A DNA stretch of 26,938 nucleotides from a virus. The stretch covers positions 1-26,938 of IMG/VR virus record IMGVR_UViG_3300045968_000421. One strand, written 5' to 3'. Made by a program: the position numbers and the translations under genes. A model generated the notes under the pieces. That model was not told where the DNA came from and did no database searches. It worked only from the letters and a program-made list of their open reading frames with translations. Shown piece by piece: positions 1,101 through 12,256 of the stretch (position 1 is its first letter; each line of letters begins with the position of its first letter).

Positions 1101-1365
1101 ATTCGTGCGGTAATCGCGACGATTGCGACATAGGAATATATTGACAAAACGGCACGAACGATCCCGGACGCATATAGGTACGCAAAACTGCTAGTTGCGT
1201 TCTATGACCGTTTATTTGGGTTTTAGACGCAACCCGGTTTTTGGCCCCATTCCGGGCCCCCCTCCCCTCCCCTAGATCCGTGCGTTATCCCCAGCCCTTT
1301 AGGGCTGCCTCAAAAAAAGTCGAAATAAACGCACTCAGGCTCTTTTCTTTTTGTCTTTCATCGTC
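1101..1365 (+). other. gene-free AT-richer segment with hexamer repeats
   Basis: No convincing gene lies here. The left half is markedly more AT-rich than the rest of the window (for example TAGGAATATATTGACAAAAC at 1131-1150). The hexamer ACGCAA occurs at 1180-1185 and 1227-1232, with its reverse complement TTGCGT at 1195-1200. TTCGTGC (1102-1108) is matched by GCACGAA (1152-1158). A perfect hairpin, CAGCCCT-TT-AGGGCTG, sits near 1292-1307. TTGACA at 1141-1146 matches a sigma70 -35 box, but no good -10 lies 16-18 bases on. The stretch could hold promoters, operators or an origin. Confidence 0.5.
1180..1232. repeat. ACGCAA / TTGCGT repeat cluster
   Basis: ACGCAA at 1180-1185, its inverse TTGCGT at 1195-1200 and a second ACGCAA at 1227-1232 lie in AT-rich DNA. 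The first pair forms a dyad whose arms can be extended with AACT/AGTT around a GCT centre. Clustered short inverted copies upstream of a gene block suit a repressor or initiator binding site. No protein is assigned to it. Confidence 0.35.
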
Positions 1366-1371
1366 TATATA
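1366..1371 (+). promoter_or_regulatory. possible -10 box TATATA of the early leader
   Basis: TATATA sits in a short AT-rich pocket just before the purine-rich, hairpin-rich leader. The -35 position at 17-bp spacing is TTTTCT (1343-1348), a weak match. It is placed to start a transcript of about 350 nt of leader ahead of the gene at 1730. This is a weak call based on position and one box. Confidence 0.3.
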
Positions 1372-1379
1372 GAGGGGGA

Positions 1380-1690
1380 AGGAGACAAGAGGGACCAAGA
1401 GGCCCTCACACCCTGGGTGCCCGGGATCAGGCACAACGTCCGGTAGGACCGAAATACCTTCGAACCTGGAGGTAGTACCCCGAGAGGGGGAGTGAGCCAG
1501 GGGAAGAAATGAGGGTCGAGGTTCTGGTTTCCGGCGAGACCGAGCAAGCGGTTTAGGGGCGGGGTCCAAACCTCCCTACGCTAGGCAGCCGGCGACAAGA
1601 GAAAAGAAAGCTCCCCTCCCCCAGCTAGGGGGAGGGGGAAGCTCTAGGCCCTCCCCTAAGAGAGAGAGCCTAGACCTTCCCCCTGGAAGG
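1380..1690 (+). ncRNA. candidate structured 5' leader or noncoding RNA (hairpin chain)
   Basis: About 310 nt without a convincing gene contain at least eight consecutive local helices. They are GAGGG/CCCTC (1389-1393 with 1403-1407); GTGCC/GGCAC (1417-1421 with 1430-1434); GTCC-GGTA-GGAC (1438-1449); TACCT/AGGTA (1455-1459 with 1470-1474); CCCC-GAGA-GGGG with a GNRA loop (1478-1489); GGTTTC-CGGC-GAGACC (1526-1541); GGTTT/AAACC (1550-1554 with 1568-1572); a 10-bp CCCCTCCCCC stem (1613-1622 with 1628-1637) extended by AGCT pairing; TCTAGGC/GCCTAGA (1643-1649 with 1668-1674); and CCTTCC-CCCT-GGAAGG (1675-1690). An unstructured A-rich run with the ribosome-binding site of the 1730 gene follows. 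No known RNA family is recognised. Confidence 0.45.
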
Positions 1691-1729
1691 ACCAACCCTC
1701 AACCAAATCAAAATCAAAGGAACAAGACA

Positions 1730-2416
1730 ATGACGAAGCTCACCACCATGCAGTACGCCCTCATGAACCGCATCGCCCATGACCAGTACAACACCACGAA
1801 CGGCGCCACCCCGACCAAGCATACGGACGTCAACTGCTGGCTGTTCGCTGACGAGTTCGCCGCCGACCTCGGCCTGACCGAGAAGCAGGTCGGCGGCCTC
1901 CTGACCACTCTCCAGGAAGCCGGTCTGATCGAGATGCACATCGACAAGAAGAAGACGACCAAGAACCACACCAACGAGAGCAGCGTGTGGTTCACCGAGG
2001 AAGGCTTCCAGGCCTGGAAGGAAGCAGCCCACGACGCCGGAGACGCGGCCAACAAGGTTGGCCCCAAGAAGAAGGTCGCCAAGAAGGCGGTTGTCGAAAC
2101 CAAGAAGGAAGAGACAGTGACGAACAACGTGATCGACCTCCTCGCCGCCCGCGAGGGCAGCCACAAGCGCATCGCCGCCCAGACCCTCCTCAAGAGAGAG
2201 GGCAAGGCGATCACCATGGCCGACCTGGCCAAGGCAGTCTACGGAGAGCCGGAGTTCACCGGTCAGGTCGGGATGGTGCTCAAGGGCATCGCCAAGGCCA
2301 TCGAGGTCCAGGGCCTGGCCCTGACCCTGACCAGAGAGAAGGGCAGCGTCACCCTCTCCTCCCTCGAGCCCAAGCCGGCCCCGGCCAAGAAGAGCCGGGC
2401 CAAGAAGGCCGCCTAG
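1730..2416 (+). CDS. two-domain winged-helix DNA-binding protein with Lys-rich tail
   Basis: A 228-residue protein, first gene of the rightward block; ATG follows AAAGGAAC at good spacing. Residues 36-95 look like a MarR/phage-replication type winged helix: helix pair FADEFAADLGLTEKQVGGLL, recognition helix LLTTLQEAGLIE, then a basic wing. A Lys/Ala linker (111-126) leads to a second domain at 145-210 with DLAKAVYG (165-172) and VGMVLKGIAK. That second domain is repeated in the protein at 8355. The C-terminus is Pro/Ala/Lys-rich (KPAPAKKSRAKKAA), like histone H1 or HU tails. A DNA-binding or transcription-regulating role is inferred. Its position directly after the structured leader suggests it is the lead product of the early block. 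Confidence 0.75.
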   Translation: MTKLTTMQYALMNRIAHDQYNTTNGATPTKHTDVNCWLFADEFAADLGLTEKQVGGLLTTLQEAGLIEMHIDKKKTTKNHTNESSVWFTEEGFQAWKEAAHDAGDAANKVGPKKKVAKKAVVETKKEETVTNNVIDLLAAREGSHKRIAAQTLLKREGKAITMADLAKAVYGEPEFTGQVGMVLKGIAKAIEVQGLALTLTREKGSVTLSSLEPKPAPAKKSRAKKAA

Positions 2417-2423
2417 TCACCCA

Positions 2424-2452
2424 GCCCCTTCCCTCTCCTCGAGGGAAGGGGC
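2424..2452 (+). promoter_or_regulatory. intergenic hairpin, 11-bp stem
   Basis: GCCCCTTCCCT (2424-2434) pairs perfectly with AGGGAAGGGGC (2442-2452) around a CTCCTCG loop. It lies right after the stop of the 1730 gene. There is no T run after it, so it is unlikely to be a simple terminator. It may stabilise the upstream mRNA end or act as a processing site. It resembles the first hairpin of the three two-hairpin elements downstream but lacks their second hairpin. Confidence 0.6.
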
Positions 2453-2493
2453 ATCGTCGTCAGAAACAACAACCAACCAAAGGAACTTTCGAA

Positions 2494-3267
2494 ATGACCG
2501 ACAGCATGGACAAGATCATCGCCCGGGTGCAGAAGCTGCTCAACCTGGCCGGCAACAACCCCAACGAGAATGAGGCAGCCGCGGCGGTAGAGAAGGCCCA
2601 CGCCATCCTCGCCGAGCACAACCTCGACATGGCCCACATCAAGGCCTCCTCCCTGGACAAGGAGCCGGAGGACATGCTCCGGACCAACCTGGACATCGAG
2701 ACGAAGATCAAGATCAAGTCGTTCTCGTGGCTCTGGAACGCTGTGGCCAAGGCCCACTTCTGCAAGCTCTACCAGCGGACCAACCACAAGGGTCACAAGG
2801 TCTACACCTTCGTGGGTCGGAGGATCAACACGATCGTCGCCGCCCAGATGGCCCAGTACCTCTCGACCACCGTGTGGCGGCTGATGAGGGAGGAGGCCAA
2901 GAGGGTCGAGGCAGAGCGCCCGGGCGCCGGCTTCAAGCCCACCGGGGCACTCAACTCCAACTTCGTGACCAACTTCGTCGAGGGTGCGGTTCACCGGCTG
3001 ATGAAGAGGCTCAAGGAGATGGAGACGAGCGGAGCCCAGGAGAACGCCCTGGTGCTCTACAACGCGGACGAGGCCAAGCTCAACGAGGCATACATCCGGG
3101 AGCAGCTTGGCATCCGCCTCCGGGCAGGAAGGAACTCTGGCAACGCTCGGCACAACTCCGACGCCTACGCCAGGGGAGACAGGGCCGGTGGGAACATCAG
3201 CCTCAACCAGCAGGTCTCCGCCTCCTCCCCCAAGCCGGCGGTCGGCAACACGAGACTGCTCAAGTGA
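2494..3267 (+). CDS. DUF2786-type protein
   Basis: A 257-residue protein of a family common in phages and some bacteria; its function is unknown. The N-terminus (MDKIIARVQKLLNLAG, then NEAAAAVEKAHAILAEHNL) is the DUF2786 signature. The middle is a basic alpha/beta region with aromatic residues (FSWLWNAVAKAHFCKLYQ, then VYTFVGRRIN). The C-terminus (AYARGDRAGGNISLNQQV) is the conserved family tail. The start ATG at 2494 is chosen because CCAAAGGAAC precedes it; upstream in-frame codons belong to the other-frame shadow of the previous gene. It is probably cytoplasmic. The next small gene is translationally coupled to it. Confidence 0.85.
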   Translation: MTDSMDKIIARVQKLLNLAGNNPNENEAAAAVEKAHAILAEHNLDMAHIKASSLDKEPEDMLRTNLDIETKIKIKSFSWLWNAVAKAHFCKLYQRTNHKGHKVYTFVGRRINTIVAAQMAQYLSTTVWRLMREEAKRVEAERPGAGFKPTGALNSNFVTNFVEGAVHRLMKRLKEMETSGAQENALVLYNADEAKLNEAYIREQLGIRLRAGRNSGNARHNSDAYARGDRAGGNISLNQQVSASSPKPAVGNTRLLK

Positions 3268-3353
3268 ACGAGCTCCTCGTTGCTCTCTGGTGCATGGTCC
3301 CGGTAGCGACCGGGGTCATGCTCTTCTTAATCGCCCTGATGATCGGGGCATAA
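3264..3353 (+). CDS. 29-residue membrane peptide
   Basis: GTG at 3264 overlaps the previous stop (GTGA). The product is essentially one hydrophobic helix (LLVALWCMVPVATG, then VMLFLIALMIGA), predicted to sit in the inner membrane. It was found by coupling and hydrophobicity, so confidence is moderate. The next gene has its own ribosome-binding site 10 nt after the stop. No function is assigned. Confidence 0.5.
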   Translation: MNELLVALWCMVPVATGVMLFLIALMIGA

Positions 3354-3376
3354 CCCAAAGGAAAGGAACTACGGAA

Positions 3377-3925
3377 ATGGACGATCTAATAGGCCGGCTC
3401 GAGAAGCCGGAGGACGCCCAGCGGTTCATCTTCGCTGGCAACGCCATCGTTACGCTCAGGTCGGTCAAGACCGGGACAAGGTTCACCTACAAGATCGCCA
3501 AGAAGGAGGAGGAGGGCAAGAACGACGTGTTCTTCGTCAACCTCCTCTCCGGCCCGGACAACACCTCCGACTACATCTACCTCGGATGCTTCTGGGGAAG
3601 GGACAGGGCCTGGCGACACGACAAGAAGGAGCGCGTGGCCTACGACGCTCCCTCTGCCGCCGCCTGGCGCTTCTTCATCAAGCAGCTCGATGGACTCTCC
3701 TTCCACGAGGCCTTGGAGGTTTGGCACGAGGGAAGGTGCTGCCGCTGCGGCAGGCTCCTGACCGTGCCCGAGAGCGTCAAGTATGGCATCGGACCCGAGT
3801 GCGCGGGGAAGATGGGCCTCAAGTTCAAGGCCGAGGCCGTCCAGGACGAGTTCGATGCGGCGGCGCCAAGGAAGGCTCCTCCCCCGCACCCGGACCTCCG
3901 GCTGATTAAGGGAGACGAGTCATGA
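3377..3925 (+). CDS. DUF6011-type protein with C-terminal cysteine motif
   Basis: A 182-residue protein. The N-terminal part (about 1-105) is alpha/beta and includes VTLRSVKTGTRFTYKIAKK and a YIYLGCFWGR strand, a layout seen in phage proteins of unknown role. Residues 117-142 carry the motif H-x3-CC-x-CGRLLT, then GIGPEC. The four cysteines (C121, C122, C124, C142) and H117 are candidate zinc ligands. This is the hallmark of the DUF6011 family, as I recall it. ATG at 3377 follows AAAGGAAAGGAAC. Its stop overlaps the next start (ATGA). A nucleic-acid-binding role is a guess. Confidence 0.75.
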   Translation: MDDLIGRLEKPEDAQRFIFAGNAIVTLRSVKTGTRFTYKIAKKEEEGKNDVFFVNLLSGPDNTSDYIYLGCFWGRDRAWRHDKKERVAYDAPSAAAWRFFIKQLDGLSFHEALEVWHEGRCCRCGRLLTVPESVKYGIGPECAGKMGLKFKAEAVQDEFDAAAPRKAPPPHPDLRLIKGDES

Positions 3926-4131
3926 GCGAGATCCGATACGTGGAGGTGACGCGGAGGCGCCGCCCCAACCACATCCTTCACCTTCTCCTCTCCCTCGTGA
4001 CCCTGGGCTTCTGGCTCCCAGTCTGGCTCCTCCTCTCCATCTTCATGGGAGGGAGCGAGACCCTGGGGAGCAAGCCCCGCCTGATCATGGCCGCCGTGGC
4101 CATGGTCATCATCTACATCTTCACCCGATAA
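3922..4131 (+). CDS. small two-helix membrane protein
   Basis: A 69-residue protein coupled to the previous gene by ATGA. A basic N-terminus (RYVEVTRRRRPNH) is followed by two hydrophobic helices at about 17-42 and 53-67, with GGSETLGSKPR between them. The positive-inside rule puts the N-terminus in the cytoplasm. It resembles small phage and bacterial inner-membrane proteins but no family is certain. Confidence 0.7.
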   Translation: MSEIRYVEVTRRRRPNHILHLLLSLVTLGFWLPVWLLLSIFMGGSETLGSKPRLIMAAVAMVIIYIFTR

Positions 4132-4151
4132 CCAATAAGGAACGAAACGAA

Positions 4152-4424
4152 ATGAGCAGAACCATCCTGGCCCGCGCGGCCCTCCCCTCGAAGAGGGGGA
4201 ACCAAGAGGCCGACATCATCCTGGTCGCCCTCGATCACAACGAGGTCACCCCCTACGTGACCTGGCAGCACAACCTCGAGGACGAGTCGACGTACTGGGG
4301 CCACTACCACGCCACGTACTCCGAGGCCCTGACAGAGTTCCACGAACGCTGCCGGAGAAAGGGAGCCTTCGTATACGAGAGCGCCCACGTCTGCGTGGCT
4401 CGTCCATCCTTTGAGGAAGCATGA
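4152..4424 (+). CDS. hypothetical protein, 90 aa
   Basis: ATG is preceded by AAGGAACGAAACGAA, the A-rich ribosome-binding leader seen across this block. The product is mixed alpha/beta, with a core strand (ADIILVALDHNEVTPYVTW) and an aromatic stretch (STYWGHYHATYSEALTEF). This fits small phage proteins that read like a regulator or modifier, but I cannot name a family. Its stop is followed after one base by the first two-hairpin element. Confidence 0.65.
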   Translation: MSRTILARAALPSKRGNQEADIILVALDHNEVTPYVTWQHNLEDESTYWGHYHATYSEALTEFHERCRRKGAFVYESAHVCVARPSFEEA

Positions 4425-4425
4425 A

Positions 4426-4487
4426 GCGAAACCTCCCTCGAGGGAGGTCACCCGTGACCATGGCTGGCCGGGTCTGATGAGCAAGCC
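4426..4487 (+). promoter_or_regulatory. two-hairpin RNA element, copy 1
   Basis: It starts GCGAAACC just after a stop codon. Hairpin 1 is the palindrome CCTCCCTCGAGGGAGG (4432-4447). Hairpin 2 pairs ACCCG (4450-4454) with CGGGT (4469-4473), with an inner CCA/TGG. The tail TCTGATGAGCAAGCC matches copies 2 and 3. The second hairpin differs from theirs in length and loop, so this is the most divergent copy. It precedes the ribosome-binding site of the protease gene at 4509. Confidence 0.65.
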
Positions 4488-4508
4488 CAACCCTAAAGGA
4501 ACTAACAA

Positions 4509-5381
4509 GTGACGAAGATGATAAGAGCGGCGATGGCGGCCTGCGCGGCCCTCGCCCTCACTTCAACCGCGCAGGCAATCGAAATCTATCCGATGAAGGA
4601 GTTCTCGACGAGCATCTACATCACCGGCAACATAGAGTACGGCGACGAGGCCTTCCTGCTCAAGGTGCTCCAGGAGCGCCAGGGCAAGGGACAGGCCACG
4701 GAGTTCGCGGTGCTCAACTCCCCCGGAGGCAATATGCACGCCGGCATGGAGATGGCCCTGCTCATGAAGGGCTGGGGGATCAAGACGGTGGTTGGGGCAG
4801 ATGAGGCGTGTGCCTCCGCCTGCATGCTGATGTACGCCGGAGGCGTCCAGCGCTATGCCTGGCGGGGAGCCCTGCTGGGGGTCCATGGAGCATCGACCAC
4901 CATCAACGGCTACACGGAGGACACCGGAGACGGCACCGTGAGGCTGGCCAAGATGATGGCCTTTCTTGGGGCTCCCGACTCGGTCATCGCCCTCCTGGTG
5001 GTCACCTCCTCAGACGACATGACCTGGCTCGACAACCAGGCAGTCCAGGGCTGGGTTCAGCTCCTCGATCCTCGCAACGAGCAGAGAGAAGAGCAGCAGA
5101 CCACGACGACGACGACGACGACGACCGGCAACAAGAACATGACCTGTCGATCGACCGAATCAGGGATCGTCTATCAGGTCACGCTCGGAGACGCGAACAT
5201 CGTCGTCAACGGCAAGCTCTATCAGGTCAACGAACAGCACGCCGCCACCAAGGAGACTGGGGCGTGGGTGGCCACCGGGCCGACCCGGTGGGGCAAGTAC
5301 GGGGCAGTGTTCTACGGTCCCAATCCGAGAATGGCATTCATCAACACCAAGGGCGAGAAGGCAGTGGATCGCTGCTGGTAG
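4509..5381 (+). CDS. exported ClpP/crotonase-like serine protease
   Basis: A 290-residue protein with a signal peptide (1-23, cleavage after AQA), so probably periplasmic. GTG at 4509 follows TAAAGGAACTAAC; ATG at 4518 is an alternative. The ClpP/crotonase fold is supported by the oxyanion-type NSPGG (70-74), CASACMLMYAGG (101-112) with likely nucleophile Ser103, and GVHGAS with likely catalytic His126. This is the pattern of COG3904-type periplasmic proteins. A Thr9 linker encoded by an (ACG)7 run joins a small C-terminal beta domain with two cysteines. An exported protease in an early block could act on the host envelope or block superinfection; that is inference. The substrate is unknown. 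Confidence 0.75.
   Translation: MTKMIRAAMAACAALALTSTAQAIEIYPMKEFSTSIYITGNIEYGDEAFLLKVLQERQGKGQATEFAVLNSPGGNMHAGMEMALLMKGWGIKTVVGADEACASACMLMYAGGVQRYAWRGALLGVHGASTTINGYTEDTGDGTVRLAKMMAFLGAPDSVIALLVVTSSDDMTWLDNQAVQGWVQLLDPRNEQREEQQTTTTTTTTTGNKNMTCRSTESGIVYQVTLGDANIVVNGKLYQVNEQHAATKETGAWVATGPTRWGKYGAVFYGPNPRMAFINTKGEKAVDRCW
5103..5123 (+). repeat. (ACG)7 trinucleotide repeat
   Basis: Seven perfect ACG units inside the protease gene encode most of the Thr9 linker between the protease-like domain and the C-terminal domain. Copy-number slippage would change linker length without breaking the frame. Confidence 0.9.
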
Positions 5382-5405
5382 CCCACAACCCTCAAAGGAA
5401 AGAAA

Positions 5406-5855
5406 GTGACGAAAATGAGAAACTCAATCGTAGCGGCGTTCGGCGCCGTGTTCGCAGTCGCCATCCCCCAGAAGCTCATCGTGTTCCTGGAGACCCCCTC
5501 CGCTCACGCGGGCTTCGTCAAACCAAACGAGCCCGCGGCTCAAAAGGGAGACAGGCTGGTCAGGGCCGGGGTCATCGGCCCCGTCCCCTCCTACGCCCTG
5601 ACCCTGACCCACGCCAACGGCCTGACGACCAAGGTAGTGGAGGGCCAGCCATACGCCGACTGCCGGATCCTGGCCTCGGCCTACGTCAGCGAGAACAACG
5701 TGCTCATCGTCCAGCAGCCGCTGGGCAATGTCCGCGTAGTCCCGATGGACATCAAGGTGTCCTGCGTAATCGACGGGGTCCTGCCCTTCCCTCCAGTCCT
5801 TCCGGAGACGGCTCCCCTGCCGACGCCCAGGGACGAGAATGCCCCATCGTTCTAA
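5406..5855 (+). CDS. exported hypothetical protein, 149 aa
   Basis: GTG at 5406 follows AAAGGAAAGAAA; the N-terminus MTKMRN mirrors that of the protease before it. A hydrophobic segment (8-28) leads to a plausible signal cleavage site after SAHA (about residue 36). Two cysteines in the mature part (YADC and KVSC) could form a disulphide, which fits the periplasm. The C-terminus is Pro-rich. It sits 24 nt after the protease gene, so the two probably form an exported pair. No family is recognised. Confidence 0.65.
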   Translation: MTKMRNSIVAAFGAVFAVAIPQKLIVFLETPSAHAGFVKPNEPAAQKGDRLVRAGVIGPVPSYALTLTHANGLTTKVVEGQPYADCRILASAYVSENNVLIVQQPLGNVRVVPMDIKVSCVIDGVLPFPPVLPETAPLPTPRDENAPSF

Positions 5856-5859
5856 AAAA

Positions 5860-5920
5860 GTGAAACCTCCCCTCGAGGGGAGGTAGTCGCGGGGTGGTGC
5901 CCGCGGCCTGAAGATCAGCC
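5860..5920 (+). promoter_or_regulatory. two-hairpin RNA element, copy 2
   Basis: GTGAAACC leads into the palindrome CCTCCCCTCGAGGGGAGG (5866-5883). A second hairpin follows: GTCGCGGG (5886-5893), loop GTGGTG, CCCGCGGC (5900-5907), with one G-T pair. The tail CCTGAAGATCAGCC ends just before an AAAGGAAAGGAAC ribosome-binding site. The second stem differs from copy 3 at several positions while the loop is identical. Confidence 0.75.
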
Positions 5921-5939
5921 AAAAGGAAAGGAACCCAAA

Positions 5940-6155
5940 ATGGCGATGACTACACGAGACCATTACATTCTCGCTCAGGCCCTCTACGTGGCCTCGAGGG
6001 AGATGGCCAAGGAGAAGTGGCCCGAGCTCTCCAACATCGAGGACATGAAGCGCCTGCTCGACGAATACTTCCCGAGCTTCAAGGCAGTGTTCGAGAGCCA
6101 GGAGAGGAACCGGGCAGAGGCGATCGCGGCCTCCGACAAGGAGACTGCGGAATGA
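5940..6155 (+). CDS. hypothetical protein, 71 aa
   Basis: ATG follows AAAGGAAAGGAACCCAAA. The product is a small, acidic, helical protein (HYILAQALYVASREMAKEKW, then EDMKRLLDEYFPSFKAVF). It is first in a run of four coupled small genes and its stop overlaps the next start (ATGA). No family is recognised. Confidence 0.65.
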   Translation: MAMTTRDHYILAQALYVASREMAKEKWPELSNIEDMKRLLDEYFPSFKAVFESQERNRAEAIAASDKETAE

Positions 6156-6514
6156 CCTGGACCCTGGAGACGAAGGAGGGGCGCGCCTACGCGGGGCGCC
6201 TCATCAAGGAAGTGCTCAAGGTCATCACCGGCGACGAGCCGAACATCGAGACCGGGGAGGGAGAGGGACAGGGGGAGGTATCCTTCGAGAACCTCTTCGT
6301 CCTCGGCCAGGAGGACGGCTATGCCATAAGCTACGCCGTAGAGGTCCCGGCCACCAGGTGGGAGCCCTCTGGCGTGGACATCGTCGAGGTGGCCGTCGTC
6401 GCCTCCCTGGACGAGGCCATCGAGCTGGCCCTCAAGACCCACCTCTGCCAACTGGTCGACGTGGCCCTGGAGGGAGAGCGCATGGTGAGCCTAGTAGAGG
6501 AGGAGCAGTCGTGA
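6152..6514 (+). CDS. hypothetical protein, 120 aa
   Basis: ATG at 6152 overlaps the previous stop. The protein is acidic (IETGEGEGQGE) and alpha/beta, with alternating strands (GYAISYAVEV, GVDIVEVAVVA) and a closing helix (LDEAIELALKTHLCQL). It ends by overlapping the next start (GTGA). No family is recognised; it is probably cytoplasmic. Confidence 0.65.
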   Translation: MTWTLETKEGRAYAGRLIKEVLKVITGDEPNIETGEGEGQGEVSFENLFVLGQEDGYAISYAVEVPATRWEPSGVDIVEVAVVASLDEAIELALKTHLCQLVDVALEGERMVSLVEEEQS

Positions 6515-6699
6515 TCACCCCGGAGATGTACCAGAACGCCAAGGACAGGATCGAGCATCTCGAGCGGGAGCTTCGACAGTGCCAGGAGATCGGCAACAAC
6601 CTGATCGTAGAGAACGTCCAGATCAAGGCCGAGCTCGACCGGGTCAATTCGGAGCTGGAGGGATGGAGGAGGGCCAAGACGTGGGCAGACACTCCCTGA
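6511..6699 (+). CDS. small coiled-coil protein, 62 aa
   Basis: GTG at 6511 overlaps the previous stop, with GAGGAGGAG just upstream. Nearly the whole product is one amphipathic helix with heptad-like spacing (IEHLERELRQCQEIGNNLIV, then IKAELDRVNSELEGWRRAK), so it should form a coiled-coil dimer or oligomer. Such small proteins are common in phage early regions. No specific role is assigned. The next gene starts inside its 3' end. Confidence 0.6.
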   Translation: MITPEMYQNAKDRIEHLERELRQCQEIGNNLIVENVQIKAELDRVNSELEGWRRAKTWADTP

Positions 6700-6968
6700 T
6701 CCTCCTCCTGGCCCTGGCAGGAGCCTCGCCAGCCGCAGGGAAGGACCTTCCCCGCAGTCAGGAGCCCCCACCCCCTCCGCGGCCCTTGGTGACCGTCCCT
6801 GCGGAGGCCTTTGCCCATCCCGGATCGCCTCGGACCAGGTGGAGGAGCACCAACCAGATCATCGAGGAGTATCGAACCCCCGGAACCGGGCGGTCGGACT
6901 TCGTCGACCAGAGAGGGAGAAGGATCGATTGCTATCGGTCATTCACCGGAAGGGTAGACTGCCGATGA
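6681..6968 (+). CDS. small secreted protein, 95 aa
   Basis: GTG at 6681 follows GGAGGAGGG at 8-10 nt and gives a compact signal peptide (GRHSLILLLALAGASPAAG, cleavage near residue 20). ATG at 6663 would add six residues in front. The mature part is Pro-rich at first, then basic, and ends with two cysteines (RIDCY and VDCR) that may pair in the periplasm. It overlaps the previous gene by 19 nt and the next by ATGA. It is the third exported product of this block. Confidence 0.6.
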   Translation: MGRHSLILLLALAGASPAAGKDLPRSQEPPPPPRPLVTVPAEAFAHPGSPRTRWRSTNQIIEEYRTPGTGRSDFVDQRGRRIDCYRSFTGRVDCR

Positions 6969-7141
6969 TGATCCCGATCTGGAGGACCAAGGACGGTAGG
7001 CTCATCCCGGTCAACCAGATGAGCGAGTCGCACCTCCGCAACTCCATCAACCTCATCCTCCGATCTGGTGGCCGGTGGAGGGGGGATCAACTGAATGGCC
7101 TCCTGATCGAACTCGAGATCAGGAGGATCACCGGACGATGA
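6965..7141 (+). CDS. small phage protein with WxTKDGRxIPV motif, 58 aa
   Basis: ATG at 6965 overlaps the previous stop. The sequence IWRTKDGRLIPVNQMSESHL, then a helix around NSINLI, matches a pattern I recognise from many short phage proteins of unknown function (W-x-TKDG-x-x-IPV-x-x-M-x-x-x-HL). The remainder is basic and helical. The stop codon is followed at once by the third two-hairpin element. Confidence 0.6.
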   Translation: MMIPIWRTKDGRLIPVNQMSESHLRNSINLILRSGGRWRGDQLNGLLIELEIRRITGR

Positions 7142-7203
7142 GCGAAACCTCCCCTCGAGGGGAGGTCGTCACGACGTGGTGGTCGTGACCTGAATGAGCA
7201 GCC
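7142..7203 (+). promoter_or_regulatory. two-hairpin RNA element, copy 3
   Basis: GCGAAACC leads into CCTCCCCTCGAGGGGAGG (7148-7165), identical to copy 2. The second hairpin is GTCACGAC (7168-7175), loop GTGGTG, GTCGTGAC (7182-7189), a perfect 8-bp stem. The tail CCTGAATGAGCAGCC ends 21 nt before the next ATG. Compensating stem changes relative to copy 2 support a paired RNA form. Confidence 0.75.
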
Positions 7204-7224
7204 AACACCGAAGGAGCATACGGA

Positions 7225-7605
7225 ATGAAGAAAATTTCAAAGGGCGACGTTTCCAAGCTTGAGGAGATCGTGGCCGATCTTACCAGCAAGAAGACGGATG
7301 TCGAGACGGCAATCGAAAAGGCCAACGAGGCCATCGTGGAGGCCAACGCCGCCATCGAGGAGTACAACGGCCATCTGGAGGAGGCCGAGGCTCTCCGCGA
7401 CTCGGTGGTCGGAGCCATCGAGGAGTACGTCGGAGACAAGTCGGAGAAGTGGCAGGAGGGCGACGCCGCCGCCTCCTACGAGGACTGGAAGGGAGAGTGG
7501 GAGGGCATCGACTTCTCCGAGGTCGATCCGATCGAGGAGCTGACCGCTCCGGACATGGACCACTCCTCCGAGCTCGAGGGCCTGCCCCAGGAGGTATCGC
7601 TGTGA
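7225..7605 (+). CDS. coiled-coil protein, 126 aa
   Basis: ATG follows GAAGGAGCATACGG. Residues about 8-70 form a long heptad-type helix rich in Ala, Glu and Lys (IVADLTSKKTDVETAIEKAN, then EAIVEANAAIEEYNGHLEEA). The rest is acidic and largely disordered, with Asp and Glu clusters and a Trp pair. A cytoplasmic, oligomeric protein is expected. The next gene is coupled by GTGA. No family is recognised. Confidence 0.65.
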   Translation: MKKISKGDVSKLEEIVADLTSKKTDVETAIEKANEAIVEANAAIEEYNGHLEEAEALRDSVVGAIEEYVGDKSEKWQEGDAAASYEDWKGEWEGIDFSEVDPIEELTAPDMDHSSELEGLPQEVSL

Positions 7606-7880
7606 GACTGGTCAATCTGGAAATCAATCCCCTCGACGCGGGAGGGATAAGGGTCAAGGCAATCTCCCGGTTCTCCGGGGAGGAGCACGAGATGGTCCTG
7701 CCAATGTCCCTGGACGAGTTCGGCAAGGCCCTCGAGGACTGGGAAGCCAGGAGGGTCCCCATCCAGGAGGCCTTCCCGACGCTCACCGATCAGCAGCGGG
7801 AGTTCCTCATGACGGGGAGCACCCAGGAGGAATGGGACAAGGCATTCCCGGAAGACGATGAGGACGAGAAGGGAGACTGA
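7602..7880 (+). CDS. conserved phage protein, AFP..REFL.TG..EEWD type, 92 aa
   Basis: GTG at 7602 overlaps the previous stop and follows GGAGG. The N-terminus is a beta-rich stretch (LVNLEINPLDAGGIRVKAIS). The C-terminal half (IQEAFPTLTDQQREFLMTG, then EEWDKAFPEDDED) matches a motif I have seen in many small phage proteins encoded among replication-region genes. Function is unknown. The acidic tail could interact with a basic partner. Confidence 0.65.
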   Translation: MRLVNLEINPLDAGGIRVKAISRFSGEEHEMVLPMSLDEFGKALEDWEARRVPIQEAFPTLTDQQREFLMTGSTQEEWDKAFPEDDEDEKGD

Positions 7881-7881
7881 T

Positions 7882-8211
7882 GTGAAGGTAACGATCGAGT
7901 TCGACGCCGACGAGGAGACGGTCCAGAAGGTTCTGGCCCTCCTCTCCGGGAAGCCGGCGACGATCCCTCCCCTCGAGGGGAGGCCAAAGCGAAGGAAGGC
8001 CGGTCACCCCTACCGGGGAGACAAGGGACTGGTCGATGTCATATTCGGCATCGTCAACGACAGGGGAGGAGAGGCCCGCCTGTCCGAGATCAAGCGAGAC
8101 GTGAGAAAGCTCAAGGCCTGGAAGACGACCAGCATCTCCGCGGCCATCCACATCCTCAAGCGATCCGGGAAGCTGGCCAAAGCCAACGGGGTCTACACGA
8201 TCCAGCACTAG
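7882..8211 (+). CDS. winged-helix-like protein, 109 aa
   Basis: GTG at 7882, one base after the previous stop, follows GGGAG; the ATG at 7880 runs straight into TGA. A short N-terminal alpha/beta part (VKVTIEFDADEETVQKVLAL) and a basic linker (RPKRRKAGH) precede a winged helix. Its helices are VDVIFGIVN, LSEIKRDVRKL and TSISAAIHILKRSGKL, and the wing strand is KANGVYTI. It is probably DNA-binding. The linker codons at 7966-7983 spell the same 18-bp palindrome as element hairpin 1. It is the last gene before the terminator at 8269. Confidence 0.7.
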   Translation: MKVTIEFDADEETVQKVLALLSGKPATIPPLEGRPKRRKAGHPYRGDKGLVDVIFGIVNDRGGEARLSEIKRDVRKLKAWKTTSISAAIHILKRSGKLAKANGVYTIQH

Positions 8212-8220
8212 AGTTGGAAG

Positions 8221-8246
8221 GGGGGAGGGCTCTTAACCCCTCCCCC
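8221..8246 (+). promoter_or_regulatory. hairpin upstream of terminator, 9-bp stem
   Basis: GGGGGAGGG (8221-8229) pairs perfectly with CCCTCCCCC (8238-8246). No T run follows directly. It stands 22 nt before the terminator stem and may protect the 3' end or support termination. Confidence 0.55.
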
Positions 8247-8268
8247 TCATCGAGCTCTAATTGCTCGG

Positions 8269-8298
8269 GAGAAGGGACAATAGTCCGCTTCTCTTTTT
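8269..8298 (+). terminator. rho-independent terminator
   Basis: GAGAAG-GGAC (8269-8278), loop AATA, then GTCC-g-CTTCTC (8283-8293) with a single bulged G, followed by TTTTT. This would end the transcript of the 7225-8211 genes or lower readthrough into the gene at 8355. Confidence 0.75.
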
Positions 8299-8354
8299 CT
8301 CTGATCTGGCCTAGTCTGGTCAGGTCACCCAACGTCATCAGAAGGAGTTAAAAC

Positions 8355-8924
8355 GTGACGAAACTGCAAGACGAAATCAATGCCATGACCTCTACGGCCC
8401 AGCTGGTCGGGTTCTACAACCAGATCGCCAACGATCACGACAAGCCTCAGGTCAAGAGGTTCAAGACCATAGAGGAGGGGCGCGACAAGGCGTACCATCT
8501 GGCCTGGACCCTGGGCCTAGACGAAGAGGCTCCAGGCGCCGGCAACACCGAGGAGGAGGCCACCGAAGCCAAGCCCAATGGCGGGAAGGCCAAGGCCCCT
8601 GCCAAGGCCAAGGGGAAGGCAGCCAAGCCGGCCAAGGAGAAGGAGCCCAAGGAGAAGGCCGCCAAGCCGGCCAGGGAGGACCAGGAGAAGGGACCTCTCG
8701 ACACCCGGGTGGGAACCCACAAGCACAAGGTCGTCGAGCTCCTGCTAGCCTCCAATGGCAAGGGGGTTGGCCTGAAGGACCTGGCCAAGAAGGTCTACGG
8801 ATCGGAGGAGAGCCTCGGCAACGTCAAGATGGTGCTCAAGGGCGTCAAGAAGAGTTGCGACGAGAACCCCAGGTTCAAGTTCTCGATCGACAAGGAGACT
8901 GCCTCCCTGACCAAGGTTCGCTAG
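8355..8924 (+). CDS. winged-helix protein with H1-like Lys/Ala-rich linker
   Basis: A 189-residue protein. GTG at 8355 follows AAGGAGTTAAAAC. Residues 11-52 (STAQLVGFYNQIA, then VKRFKTIEEGRDKA) match a motif of phage and plasmid proteins that often begin with TxxxLVxxYN. Residues 71-112 are a Lys/Ala/Pro-rich linker resembling histone H1. Residues 121-187 repeat the C-terminal domain of the 1730 gene: HKHKV, KDLAKKVYG and NVKMVLKGVKK align directly. It is probably a nucleoid- or transcription-acting DNA-binding protein. It starts a new segment after the terminator. Confidence 0.75.
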   Translation: MTKLQDEINAMTSTAQLVGFYNQIANDHDKPQVKRFKTIEEGRDKAYHLAWTLGLDEEAPGAGNTEEEATEAKPNGGKAKAPAKAKGKAAKPAKEKEPKEKAAKPAREDQEKGPLDTRVGTHKHKVVELLLASNGKGVGLKDLAKKVYGSEESLGNVKMVLKGVKKSCDENPRFKFSIDKETASLTKVR

Positions 8925-8956
8925 GGACGAATGACGTCTGGAAAGGAAGGTCGAGA

Positions 8957-9220
8957 ATGAAGGACGAAGTCCGCTTCTCTCCAAGCGAGAAGAGAATGCT
9001 CGCCATCCTCGAGAAGGAGAGCGAGCCGATCGCGACGACTGACCTAGCGCCGAAATTCTACAAGGGTCGAAAGGGTGGCACGCCGGAACACGCCGTGTCC
9101 ACCGTCGTCTCGGTATCGAGAGCCCTGGAGAAGAAGACGGCGAGAGGGTTCCCATTCAAGGTGCGGAGATCGGAGAGGGCGGGACCCTATCCGATCAAGG
9201 TCTGGATCGATCGAAAGTAA
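8957..9220 (+). CDS. small winged-helix protein, 87 aa
   Basis: ATG at 8957 follows AAAGGAAGG. The sequence SEKRMLAILEKESEPIATTD, then LAPKFYKG, a helix VSTVVSVSRALEKK and a basic wing (FPFKVRRSERAGPYPIKVWI) read as a compact winged helix. The TTDLAPKFYKG stretch resembles DLAKAVYG and DLAKKVYG of the 1730 and 8355 proteins, so the three may be related. It is likely DNA-binding and lies 32 nt after the 8355 gene. Confidence 0.7.
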   Translation: MKDEVRFSPSEKRMLAILEKESEPIATTDLAPKFYKGRKGGTPEHAVSTVVSVSRALEKKTARGFPFKVRRSERAGPYPIKVWIDRK

Positions 9221-9226
9221 ACCAAA

Positions 9227-9250
9227 GGGGCGGGGAATGACCCCCGCCCC
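9227..9250 (+). promoter_or_regulatory. GC-rich hairpin before the helicase gene
   Basis: GGGGCGGGG (9227-9235) pairs perfectly with CCCCGCCCC (9242-9250) around AATGAC. AAAACC rather than a T run follows. It lies between the 8957 gene and the helicase start, so an attenuating or mRNA-stabilising role is possible. Confidence 0.6.
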
Positions 9251-9277
9251 AAAACCATGGAAAAAGGAACGAGAGAC

Positions 9278-10741
9278 GTGAAGAAGTACAAGCCGAAGAG
9301 GAAGCCCAGAGCCCACCAGGCAGAGGCCCTCGACAACATGAAGGGAAGGGAGGCGTACGGCCTGTTCATGGCCATGCGCACCGGCAAGACCAAGACGACC
9401 ACCGACGACTTCGGCAGGCTGTGGGCCGCCGGCGAGGTGGACGACTTCCTCCTGATTGCTCCCGCCGGGGTCTACAAGACCTGGCCAGAGGAGATGGACA
9501 AGGACCTGGACCCCCTCCTCGAGGGAGAGCTGGACAAGCTCCTGTGGGGCTCCGGCTCCTCCAAGACTGCCAAGGGGGAGGAGGCCATCGACGAGTTCAT
9601 CGCCAGGAGGAAGAAGGGCGACCGTCCTCGGGCCATGTTCATCAACGTCGAGGCCCTCTCCACGGTGGAGAGAGCCCAGCGGCTGGTCTCGGAGTTCGTC
9701 CGGCAGCGCCGCTGCTACGTGGCCATCGACGAGAGCACCAGCATCAAGGAGGGAAGGAGCAAGCGAAGCAAGTTCCTGATCACCAAGGTTGCCCCCTTTG
9801 CCACGTACCGCCGGATCCTGTCCGGCCTGCCCACTCCCCAGAGCCCGCTGGACATCTACGCCCAGTTTGCCTTCCTCCAGCCCCAGAAGCCGCTGGGCTT
9901 CTCTTCCTTCGTCAACTTCCGGGCCCGGTACGCCGTGGTCCGGAGACAGCAGATGGGTGCCCGGTGGTTCGACCTGATCGTCGGCTATCGGTTCCAGGAA
10001 GAGCTGGCGGAGAAGATCAGGGACCATAGTTTCCGGGTCACGCTCGAGGACTGCTACGACCTCCCCGAGAGCGACTATCAGATCAGGCACGTTGCCCTGA
10101 CCAGGGAGCAGAAGGACGTCTATGGTCAGCTTCGAGACAGGGCCGTGGCCGTGCTCTCCGAGACGGAGAAGGTCACTGCTGATCTGGTCATCACCCAGCT
10201 GCTTAGGATGCACCAGGTGCTCTCCGGGGTGGCGGTCGACTCGACTGGGAAGATGCACGCCATCCCGGAAAACCGCACGGGCGAGCTGTTGGACCTCCTC
10301 GAGGAGTACGACGGCAAGGCCGTGATCTGGTGCGCCTACGACGTCTCCGTCCGGCAGGTCGTCGAGCAGCTCGAGAGGAAGTACGGCGAGGGCTCCGTCG
10401 CCCGGTTCTGGGGAGGCAATGCCAACACCCGGGAGGAGGAGGAGAGGGCCTTCAAGAACGATCCCGAGTGCCGGTTCATGGTCGCCACCGCGGCGGCCGG
10501 GGGAAGGGGAAGGACCTGGAGCGTCGCCGACCTGACCGTCTACCACTCCAACACCCACAACCTCGAGCACCGATCCCAGAGCGAGGAGCGGGTCAAGGGC
10601 ATAGGCAAGGAGAGCCGGGCCCTCTACGTCGATCTCGTCTCCCCTGGCACGGTGGACGAGAAGATACTCATGAGCCTGAAGAACAAGATCAACCTGGCGT
10701 CGATCCTCACGGGCGACGAGTGGCGAAAATGGGTGGTGTGA
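9278..10741 (+). CDS. SNF2-type DEAD/DEAH superfamily helicase
   Basis: A 487-residue ATP-dependent DNA translocase of superfamily 2. GTG at 9278 is chosen because AAAAAGGAAC sits 8 nt upstream, as for other genes here; ATG at 9257 lacks such a site. Motifs in order: Q-like HQAEAL (13-18), Walker A AMRTGKTKT (32-40), motif Ia LLIAPAGVYKTW, motif II DEST (151-154, where DEAH is usual), motif III SGLPTPQSPLDIY (from 182), motif V ATAAAGGRGRTW and motif VI SQSEERVKGIGK. The usual second arginine of motif VI (QxxDRxxRxGQ) is Gly here. This gene type is common in phage replication regions, where it probably remodels DNA for replication, recombination or transcription. The next gene overlaps by one base. 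Confidence 0.88.
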   Translation: MKKYKPKRKPRAHQAEALDNMKGREAYGLFMAMRTGKTKTTTDDFGRLWAAGEVDDFLLIAPAGVYKTWPEEMDKDLDPLLEGELDKLLWGSGSSKTAKGEEAIDEFIARRKKGDRPRAMFINVEALSTVERAQRLVSEFVRQRRCYVAIDESTSIKEGRSKRSKFLITKVAPFATYRRILSGLPTPQSPLDIYAQFAFLQPQKPLGFSSFVNFRARYAVVRRQQMGARWFDLIVGYRFQEELAEKIRDHSFRVTLEDCYDLPESDYQIRHVALTREQKDVYGQLRDRAVAVLSETEKVTADLVITQLLRMHQVLSGVAVDSTGKMHAIPENRTGELLDLLEEYDGKAVIWCAYDVSVRQVVEQLERKYGEGSVARFWGGNANTREEEERAFKNDPECRFMVATAAAGGRGRTWSVADLTVYHSNTHNLEHRSQSEERVKGIGKESRALYVDLVSPGTVDEKILMSLKNKINLASILTGDEWRKWVV

Positions 10742-10923
10742 TGACGAGCGAGCACAAGAGAATGAGAGACGGGTTCGCCGCCGCGGTGGAGGAGGTGCTC
10801 AGGGCCTCCCTCGTGGCGGGGGAGAAGATCGAGAGGCGAGAGAACCTGATCGAGATCAGGTTGCCGACCGTCGCCTTCAATGTCATTGTAACGATCAAGA
10901 GGGGGAGCCTGGTCGATGGCTAA
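10741..10923 (+). CDS. hypothetical protein, 60 aa
   Basis: ATG at 10741 shares one base with the helicase stop (TGATGA). The N-terminal two thirds form an amphipathic helix (EHKRMRDGFAAAVEEVLRAS). The end is a pair of strands (LIEIRLPTVAFNVIVTIKRG). It may be a helicase partner by position only. Its end overlaps the next gene by 8 nt. Confidence 0.6.
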   Translation: MTSEHKRMRDGFAAAVEEVLRASLVAGEKIERRENLIEIRLPTVAFNVIVTIKRGSLVDG

Positions 10924-11245
10924 CAGGAAGAAGATCGTCGGGACCCTGGTCGTCATCGGAGTCGATGGCAAGATAGAGGAGAGGCCGATCGAGGTCGGGG
11001 ACGTGGCCAAGGAGGTTCGCGCCGTCCTCGACGATCACCTGGAGGCGGTTCCGTACTTCTCCCAGTACAAGGGGAAGAGGTGCGTCGCCTTCTGCGGGGA
11101 GAACGGCAAGAGGAAGGGCCTGGCCCCGAACCTGCTGGCGACTACCATATGGCAGCTGGAGTTCCCCCCTCCCCACAACCAGGACTACATCGCCGGACCG
11201 GTGGCCATCGTCCACGGGCCGGCCAACTTCATGAGGGCACTATGA
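10916..11245 (+). CDS. DUF3846-like protein
   Basis: A 109-residue protein. The N-terminal strand pair (IVGTLVVIGVDGKIEERPI), a middle FCGENGKRKGLAPNLLATTI and the end YIAGPVAIVHG follow the DUF3846 pattern of a small phage protein (NExGkxxGLPxNxxAT, then GpvvivG). The function is not established. ATG at 10916 follows GGGGGAGCC. Its stop overlaps the next start (ATGA). Confidence 0.7.
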   Translation: MANRKKIVGTLVVIGVDGKIEERPIEVGDVAKEVRAVLDDHLEAVPYFSQYKGKRCVAFCGENGKRKGLAPNLLATTIWQLEFPPPHNQDYIAGPVAIVHGPANFMRAL

Positions 11246-11694
11246 CATACTACCCGAAGACCTACGAGGAGGTCGAGGCCCTCTGCAGGGAGGTCCACTC
11301 CCTGCTCGACCAGGCCCTCGCCGAGGGCTGGCGGGCACAGGCCAGGGAGAGCCATACCGTCGCCGATATCCTCTCCCGGAAGGGGGAGGAGGACAGCATC
11401 GAGGGCGGGCTGATGTGGGACGACTTCGTGATCCTCCGCCTGCTCCAGAGCATGGCCAGGGCGGACGGGGCCTCGTACCCCCTGTTCTGCATCACCCGAC
11501 ACACCGCCGCAGCGGGCGAGCTGATGAGGCTCTCCCCCCACTACCCCTTGGAGAGGGCCAAGAACGTTCGAATCGAGGAACGGATCTGGGCCATGGACCG
11601 CCTCGCCCACGGGGAGAGACTGGAGCACCCCAACGACGTCACCCCCGGCCATGCCAGGATGTTCTTTCGAGACTTCAAGGCGAGGCGAGGGTGA
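11242..11694 (+). CDS. hypothetical protein, 150 aa
   Basis: ATG at 11242 overlaps the previous stop. The protein is largely helical (YEEVEALCREVHSLLDQALA, then DDFVILRLLQSMARADGA) with aromatic and histidine-rich loops. No catalytic signature is clear. It is coupled on both sides. No family is recognised. Confidence 0.65.
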   Translation: MTYYPKTYEEVEALCREVHSLLDQALAEGWRAQARESHTVADILSRKGEEDSIEGGLMWDDFVILRLLQSMARADGASYPLFCITRHTAAAGELMRLSPHYPLERAKNVRIEERIWAMDRLAHGERLEHPNDVTPGHARMFFRDFKARRG

Positions 11695-11894
11695 AGGACT
11701 ACGACGACCCAGCAATTCGAACTCTTGTCGTCCGGGCCATGGCCTCGGTCTTAATCTCCTCCCAGGTCGACCTCTCCGACGAGGTGGCCTGCTGGAGGAG
11801 GCTGGTTAGGGCGGGGTTCTCCAGGGAGAGCATCGGGGACGTCCTCCCCGAGATCCGATCCACCTGGAGGAGAAAAGGGGGGAGGTCTCGATGA
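11691..11894 (+). CDS. hypothetical protein, 67 aa, last gene of rightward block
   Basis: GTG at 11691 overlaps the previous stop. The product is helical (IRTLVVRAMASVLISSQVDL), with a basic C-terminus (IRSTWRRKGGRSR). Its final codons lie inside the first arm and loop of the terminator that closes the block. No family is recognised. Confidence 0.6.
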   Translation: MKDYDDPAIRTLVVRAMASVLISSQVDLSDEVACWRRLVRAGFSRESIGDVLPEIRSTWRRKGGRSR

Positions 11895-11910
11895 GGCTTC
11901 CCCCCTTTTT
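11873..11910. terminator. bidirectional rho-independent terminator
   Basis: AAAAGGGGGG (11873-11882) pairs with CCCCCCTTTTT (11900-11910). Read rightward, the stem ends in a T run; read leftward, it also ends in TTTT. It lies between convergent units and overlaps the end of the last rightward gene, so it can stop both transcripts. Confidence 0.8.
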
Positions 11911-12256
11911 CGTTTCTAGAAAGCCCGCAGGGGAGGCTCGCCAGAAGCCGCCGCGGGGTCCCGGGCCTCCTACCACGTCCCTGCCCCTTGGTGCGGCCTG
12001 GCGAGCGGTCCCTACAGGCTGGCGAGGCATTTTCCCCATTTCCCCTCCATCTGGTGCGCATCCTGGCGGTCCGAATGCCCGGCCGGGGTACTATCCCCAG
12101 GGCCCGTGCGCCAGAAAGGGGCTCCCCCTCCCTCGAGGAAGGGGAGCCAGGGAGGTCCCCGGGACAGCCTATTCCCCGGGGACCGTGGGCCAGATGGCTC
12201 GAGGGAGGAGAAGCGTCGGCCCATGGGGAGAAGGAGCTTTTACCCCAAAGACGCTC
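11911..12256. other. convergent intergenic region with hairpins
   Basis: No gene is supported across about 345 nt. It holds a perfect 10-bp hairpin, GGTCCCCGGG (12154-12163) with CCCGGGGACC (12175-12184), and an 8-bp stem, GGCTCCCC (12120-12127) with GGGGAGCC (12141-12148). Read leftward, that 8-bp stem is followed by CCCTTTCT. It also holds a spaced inverted repeat, GCTCGCCAG (11937-11945) with CTGGCGAGC (11998-12006). These may help end the late transcript or protect its 3' end. Confidence 0.6.

Follow-up and report, generated by a model that had tools for sequence, protein, structure and literature searches.

Because they diverge more rapidly than genes do, structured RNAs of phages are difficult to detect. 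Among those described, the put RNAs comprise ~70 nt that fold into two stem-loops, and putL is located just downstream of its promoter (PMC9378689). GOLLD and ROOL represent large RNAs of this kind (PMC12286853), and type II hammerhead ribozymes are known from phage and prophage settings (PMC3088659). The window analyzed here, meaning the whole stretch of 26,938 nucleotides of IMGVR_UViG_3300045968_000421, comes from a virus record and represents part of an uncultured phage, with matches to tail-sheath, baseplate, and tape-measure proteins. Between its dnaE operon and the ORF at 1730–2416 lies a stretch for which a structured leader RNA of an ordinary kind is a credible, yet unproven, reading.

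The features of this locus, all on the plus strand, are as follows:

1216–1242, plus strand: terminator-like hairpin followed by a T run (pattern scan)
1343–1371, plus strand: sigma-70–like promoter, TTTTCT-N17-TATATA (pattern match)
1377–1729, plus strand: proposed structured leader RNA of ~350 nt (ORF-free gap; fold z of −2.49 against shuffles)
1509–1556, plus strand: possible 15-codon leader ORF (MRVEVLVSGETEQAV) with AGGGGAAG before its ATG (direct sequence reading)
1716–1721, plus strand: ribosome-binding site AAAGGA, read from the sequence, with mostly unpaired surroundings
1730–2416, plus strand: gene that opens the operon, encoding 228 aa, with weak winged-helix-like matches below the cut-off

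The gene-free stretch that the sequence-only reading placed at 1380–1690 falls in the window's only gap of at least 250 nt devoid of an ORF of 80 aa (1101–1669), which confirms this part of the claim. Placing it upstream of the first early gene overstates the case; it comes after the dnaE operon and stands at the head of the operon that follows. The transcript of the dnaE operon probably ends at the hairpin 1216–1242, one of four terminator-like sites that the pattern scan found in 900–2600, where 2.5 are expected by chance. The promoter pattern TTTWCW-N17-TATATA, with up to one mismatch allowed, has its single match in the window at 1343–1371 against an expectation of 0.01, a value that overstates independence since the pattern was generalized from the sites of relatives together with the window site. 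The position of this promoter suggests a transcription start at about 1377–1379. The 15-codon ORF may be there by chance.

A second contig, IMGVR_UViG_3300045926_000300, matches the window across 12.1 kb. Over the first 10.4 kb, one substituted base (position 28) and a cluster of changes in 763–797 are all that sets the two apart; hence, this near-identical contig adds no variation for testing the leader RNA. The cluster disrupts the dnaE frame of the window by absent and changed bases. As the other contig of this phage carries an intact dnaE, the break may be an assembly fault. The nearest distinct relative, IMGVR_UViG_3300043313_002965, begins near window position 3550 and therefore comes without the leader stretch. 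Downstream of the leader, the first gene is followed by a long intergenic hairpin at 2425–2454 (plus strand, CCCCTTCCCTC/GAGGGAAGGGG) that has no T run. In addition, 2222–2290 and 8778–8846, located in two genes of the operon, are 75% identical, which suggests a repeated protein domain.

The predicted fold of the leader consists of a five-way junction and several separate hairpins, listed below with pair probabilities that are means in the modeled transcript 1377–1729 unless other ends are given:

1389–1407, plus strand: hairpin GAGGG-A-CC-AAGA-GG-CCCTC, probability 0.96
1411–1502, plus strand: five-way junction, closing stem 1411–1416/1497–1502, probability 0.99
1417–1434, plus strand: junction hairpin, probability 0.99
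1438–1449, plus strand: junction hairpin, probability 0.95
1455–1474, plus strand: junction hairpin, probability 0.92
1478–1489, plus strand: junction hairpin CCCC-GAGA-GGGG with a GAGA loop, probability 0.65
1613–1637, plus strand: 10-bp C/G hairpin CCCCTCCCCC/GGGGGAGGGG, its stem extended by AGCT pairing, probability 0.92
1644–1673, plus strand: hairpin CTAGGC/GCCTAG, probability 1.00
1675–1690, plus strand: hairpin CCTTCC-CCCT-GGAAGG, probability 0.87

The junction 1411–1502 and the hairpins 1613–1637 and 1644–1673 are stable in nearly all transcripts modeled. The hairpin 1389–1407 depends on the 3′ end, with a probability of 0.01 in 1377–1600 and 0.29 in 1377–1690 (range 0.01–1.0), and is replaced by other pairings in some shorter models; likewise, that of 1675–1690 spans 0.15–0.87 with the modeled 3′ end. 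The chain of hairpins described by the sequence-only reading is mostly predicted at high probability, except for GGTTTC-CGGC-GAGACC (1526–1541), which reaches only 0.04. The A-rich ribosome-binding leader, described as unstructured, is indeed open, with 0.85 unpaired at 1700–1729. A closing stem 1373–1382/1675–1684 was discarded as not robust. Including it lifts the fold z to −3.92; however, it draws on nucleotides that precede the likely start at 1377–1379, and its probability collapses from 0.80 in 1350–1760 to 0.02 in 1375–1760.

Compared with shuffled sequences, 1380–1690 folds with a z of −2.22, and one of 100 shuffles is as good. For the domain 1388–1512, the limits of which were picked after inspecting the fold, z is −3.86 and none of 200 shuffles is as good. 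The genome background, determined from nonoverlapping 310-nt plus-strand segments, has a mean z of −0.62 (sd 1.26). Set against it, 1377–1686 has a z of −2.0, and 13 of 172 segments on both strands lie below −2.55. For the minus strand of the stretch, z is −3.27, a better value than that of the plus strand. The folding energy of the whole leader is lower than that of the controls, by a modest z of −2.0 to −2.5, and the result that the sequence-only reading named as a refutation did not arise. Since the z of the whole leader lies inside the spread of the genome, energy alone is weak evidence.

A dnaE profile search yielded 80 loci (numbered with the prefix L). Among distant relatives, with dnaE at about 50%, long gene-free leaders after dnaE occur at L023/L024, L029, L030, L041, L047, and L099–L101, with stretches of 350–550 nt; these carriers were chosen by inspection and not by a blind classifier. 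Their order is dnaE, in several a small or nuclease-like ORF, promoter, gene-free stretch, and operon. A TTTWCW-N17-TATATA–type promoter precedes the leaders of L041 and L099–L101; the promoters before the L047, L023/L024, L029, and L030 leaders are looser versions of it. At L025, L038, L046, and L092, among others, a gene follows soon after the promoter, and four changes are required to place the leader carriers on the dnaE tree. The window has the same arrangement of dnaE operon, promoter of this type, gene-free structured stretch, and operon, the definition of the group being partly derived from the window itself and hence not independent of it. L099–L101 match the window on both flanks, namely dnaE upstream and two genes downstream (40% identity in the C-terminal part of the first gene and 49% in a later gene). 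In most loci of L092–L101, the dnaE matches extend over about 3.5–4 kb as opposed to about 2.8 kb, which suggests inserted sequence, an intein for example.

The leaders share their position. Neither an RNA sequence nor a fold common to the group was found, the search for the domain 1411–1502 in the other leaders gave no match, and no shared descent of the RNAs is claimed. Folding z values of the relatives, computed against shuffles, are −3.58 for L041, −3.28 for L047, −2.76 for L024, −4.68 for L030, and −2.94 for the entire L099 leader, ribozyme included; the shorter L100 stretch (−1.58) and L029 (−0.42) fold more weakly. Between L041 and L047, promoter and leader are 94% identical across 271 nt, compared with 84% over a 3.6-kb block holding dnaE, so that by sequence identity conservation is higher in the leader than in dnaE. 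The final hairpin of this pair stays paired via two compensatory C-G to G-C double changes. By eye, a hairpin in which CGAA faces GUAGUA, resembling loop E (sarcin-ricin), recurs in the leaders of L029 (three times), L041, and L047. A CCGCAGTAGCGAGTT hairpin is common to the leaders of L023/L024 (twice) and L030, which belong to two lineages.

For the window leader itself, sequence searches found no homologs among phages, and plasmids gave just 28-nt pieces at chance level. None was found in the fetched dnaE loci by blastn or nhmmer, and a covariance model of 1411–1502 found no relative. Scanning viral contigs with a degenerate motif returned only the same phage and L107, the latter match looking like chance. 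Local alignment of the leader with six other leaders stayed at shuffle level, and a search of genome contigs for close dnaE relatives gave best matches of only 32–34%. With no homolog to align, covariation lends no support to the window leader. In the literature searched, which was covered in part, no leader RNA at a locus following dnaE was found. Several other identities were rejected for the stretch. A degenerate hammerhead within 1380–1690 reaches 5.7 bits as the best partial match to a model of the phage's own hammerheads; a CsrA/RsmA-titrating RNA finds no excess of GGA (11 versus 9.6 in shuffles, sd 2.4); GC-skew shows no clear switch indicating a replication origin; and a loop-E–like CGAA/GUAGUA module fails in the window leader, where the outer helix is unable to form.

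Three type II hammerheads are found in the operon of the leader (plus strand, 4424–4491, 5858–5924, and 7140–7207), each directly after a stop codon and ahead of the next ribosome-binding site. One of them is present in the relative L003 as well (1764–1831), and these four sequences served to build a hammerhead model. With this model, a hammerhead was found at the 3′ end of the L099 leader (6114–6187), ~13 nt ahead of the first gene; another lies at the 3′ end of the L029 leader (9735–9815; Rfam score of 36.4 bits versus a cut-off of 37). In L099–L101 and L029, a type II hammerhead separates the leader from the first gene. Behind the L024 leader lies a long hairpin with a T run, seen by eye and absent from the pattern-scan list. 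Pattern and model scans found neither a hammerhead nor a terminator between the window leader and its first gene. A weaker hammerhead candidate lies after the first gene of L099 (6471–6546). A further candidate, located in Aminobacter phage Erebus ahead of the DUF2786 gene (E 0.024), reads as a terminator-like hairpin and was rejected.

From these data, a structured 5′ leader RNA of ~350 nt, running from the promoter 1343–1371 into the operon at 1730, is proposed with close to an even chance of being correct. It builds on computed features, namely the promoter match, the gap, the domain 1388–1512, the open ribosome-binding site, and the leaders of relatives. Transcription would start at this promoter and pass through the leader into the operon, and the leader would act in cis: folded at the front of the operon mRNA, it would most likely shield the 5′ end of that mRNA and keep the ribosome-binding site clear. 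Action in cis is the weakest link of this explanation; in the window, it is favored by the open ribosome-binding site and by the lack of any visible element between leader and first gene that would separate them. The suggestion of a long regulatory 5′ leader or separate phage RNA has gained a promoter just upstream and structured leaders in relatives, which support it in part as a predicted RNA. The hammerhead of L099–L101 and L029 would cut the leader away and hence favors a separate RNA in these phages. A noncoding RNA that forms the front of the operon transcript, is released by cleavage, and acts in trans would further agree with the T-run hairpin behind the L024 leader and with the strong conservation of the L041/L047 leader beyond that of dnaE. 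For the window, such an RNA is somewhat unlikely: the 3′ end of its leader bears no visible ribozyme or terminator, and the RNA species is purely predicted, with no known target or partner. Extending the idea to a fast-diverging class of phage noncoding RNAs that heads the operon after dnaE, freed either by a hammerhead or, depending on the phage, by a terminator or nucleases, makes for a rather unlikely proposal.

Against any leader RNA, the stretch might be an ordinary promoter and spacer that folds through its sequence make-up. The whole-leader z inside the spread of the genome, the good folding on both strands with the minus strand ahead, the missing homologs, and the unalignable leaders of relatives all speak for this explanation. 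It is nevertheless quite unlikely, as the domain 1388–1512 beats all 200 shuffles, relatives repeatedly carry long gene-free stretches at the corresponding position, and the L041/L047 pair combines strong conservation with compensatory changes. The location just downstream of a promoter and before a long operon would also suit antitermination by nascent RNA as in HK022 put, wherein the leader binds RNA polymerase and carries it through the operon. However, the leader far exceeds put in size and branching, the plus strand of 1700–12200 contains few and weak terminator-like sites, with a total near chance, and hammerhead cutting in relatives would untether the RNA, rendering this mechanism highly improbable.

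The proposed structured leader RNA resembles GOLLD and ROOL in being a large gene-free structured region of a phage (PMC12286853). In contrast to these RNAs, which are often located near tRNA genes, it is shorter, the window contains no tRNA gene, and the leader stretch has no Rfam family match up to an E value of 5, GOLLD/ROOL and the hammerhead family RF02276 included. Compared with the type II hammerheads of phages (PMC3088659), three occur in the operon of the leader and none inside 1380–1690. The window alone would offer an unproven leader RNA; a recognizable site after dnaE and behind a recognizable promoter, together with a ribozyme that marks the RNA end in some phages, would make these RNAs testable by RNA-seq and comparison. 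By position, the nearest analogue is put of HK022, the leader being predicted as a folded RNA that, like put, lies just downstream of a phage promoter and before an operon (PMC9378689), the promoter of put being an early one. This likeness is one of position, and the two stem-loops of put contrast with a leader about 350 nt long that is organized around a five-way junction.
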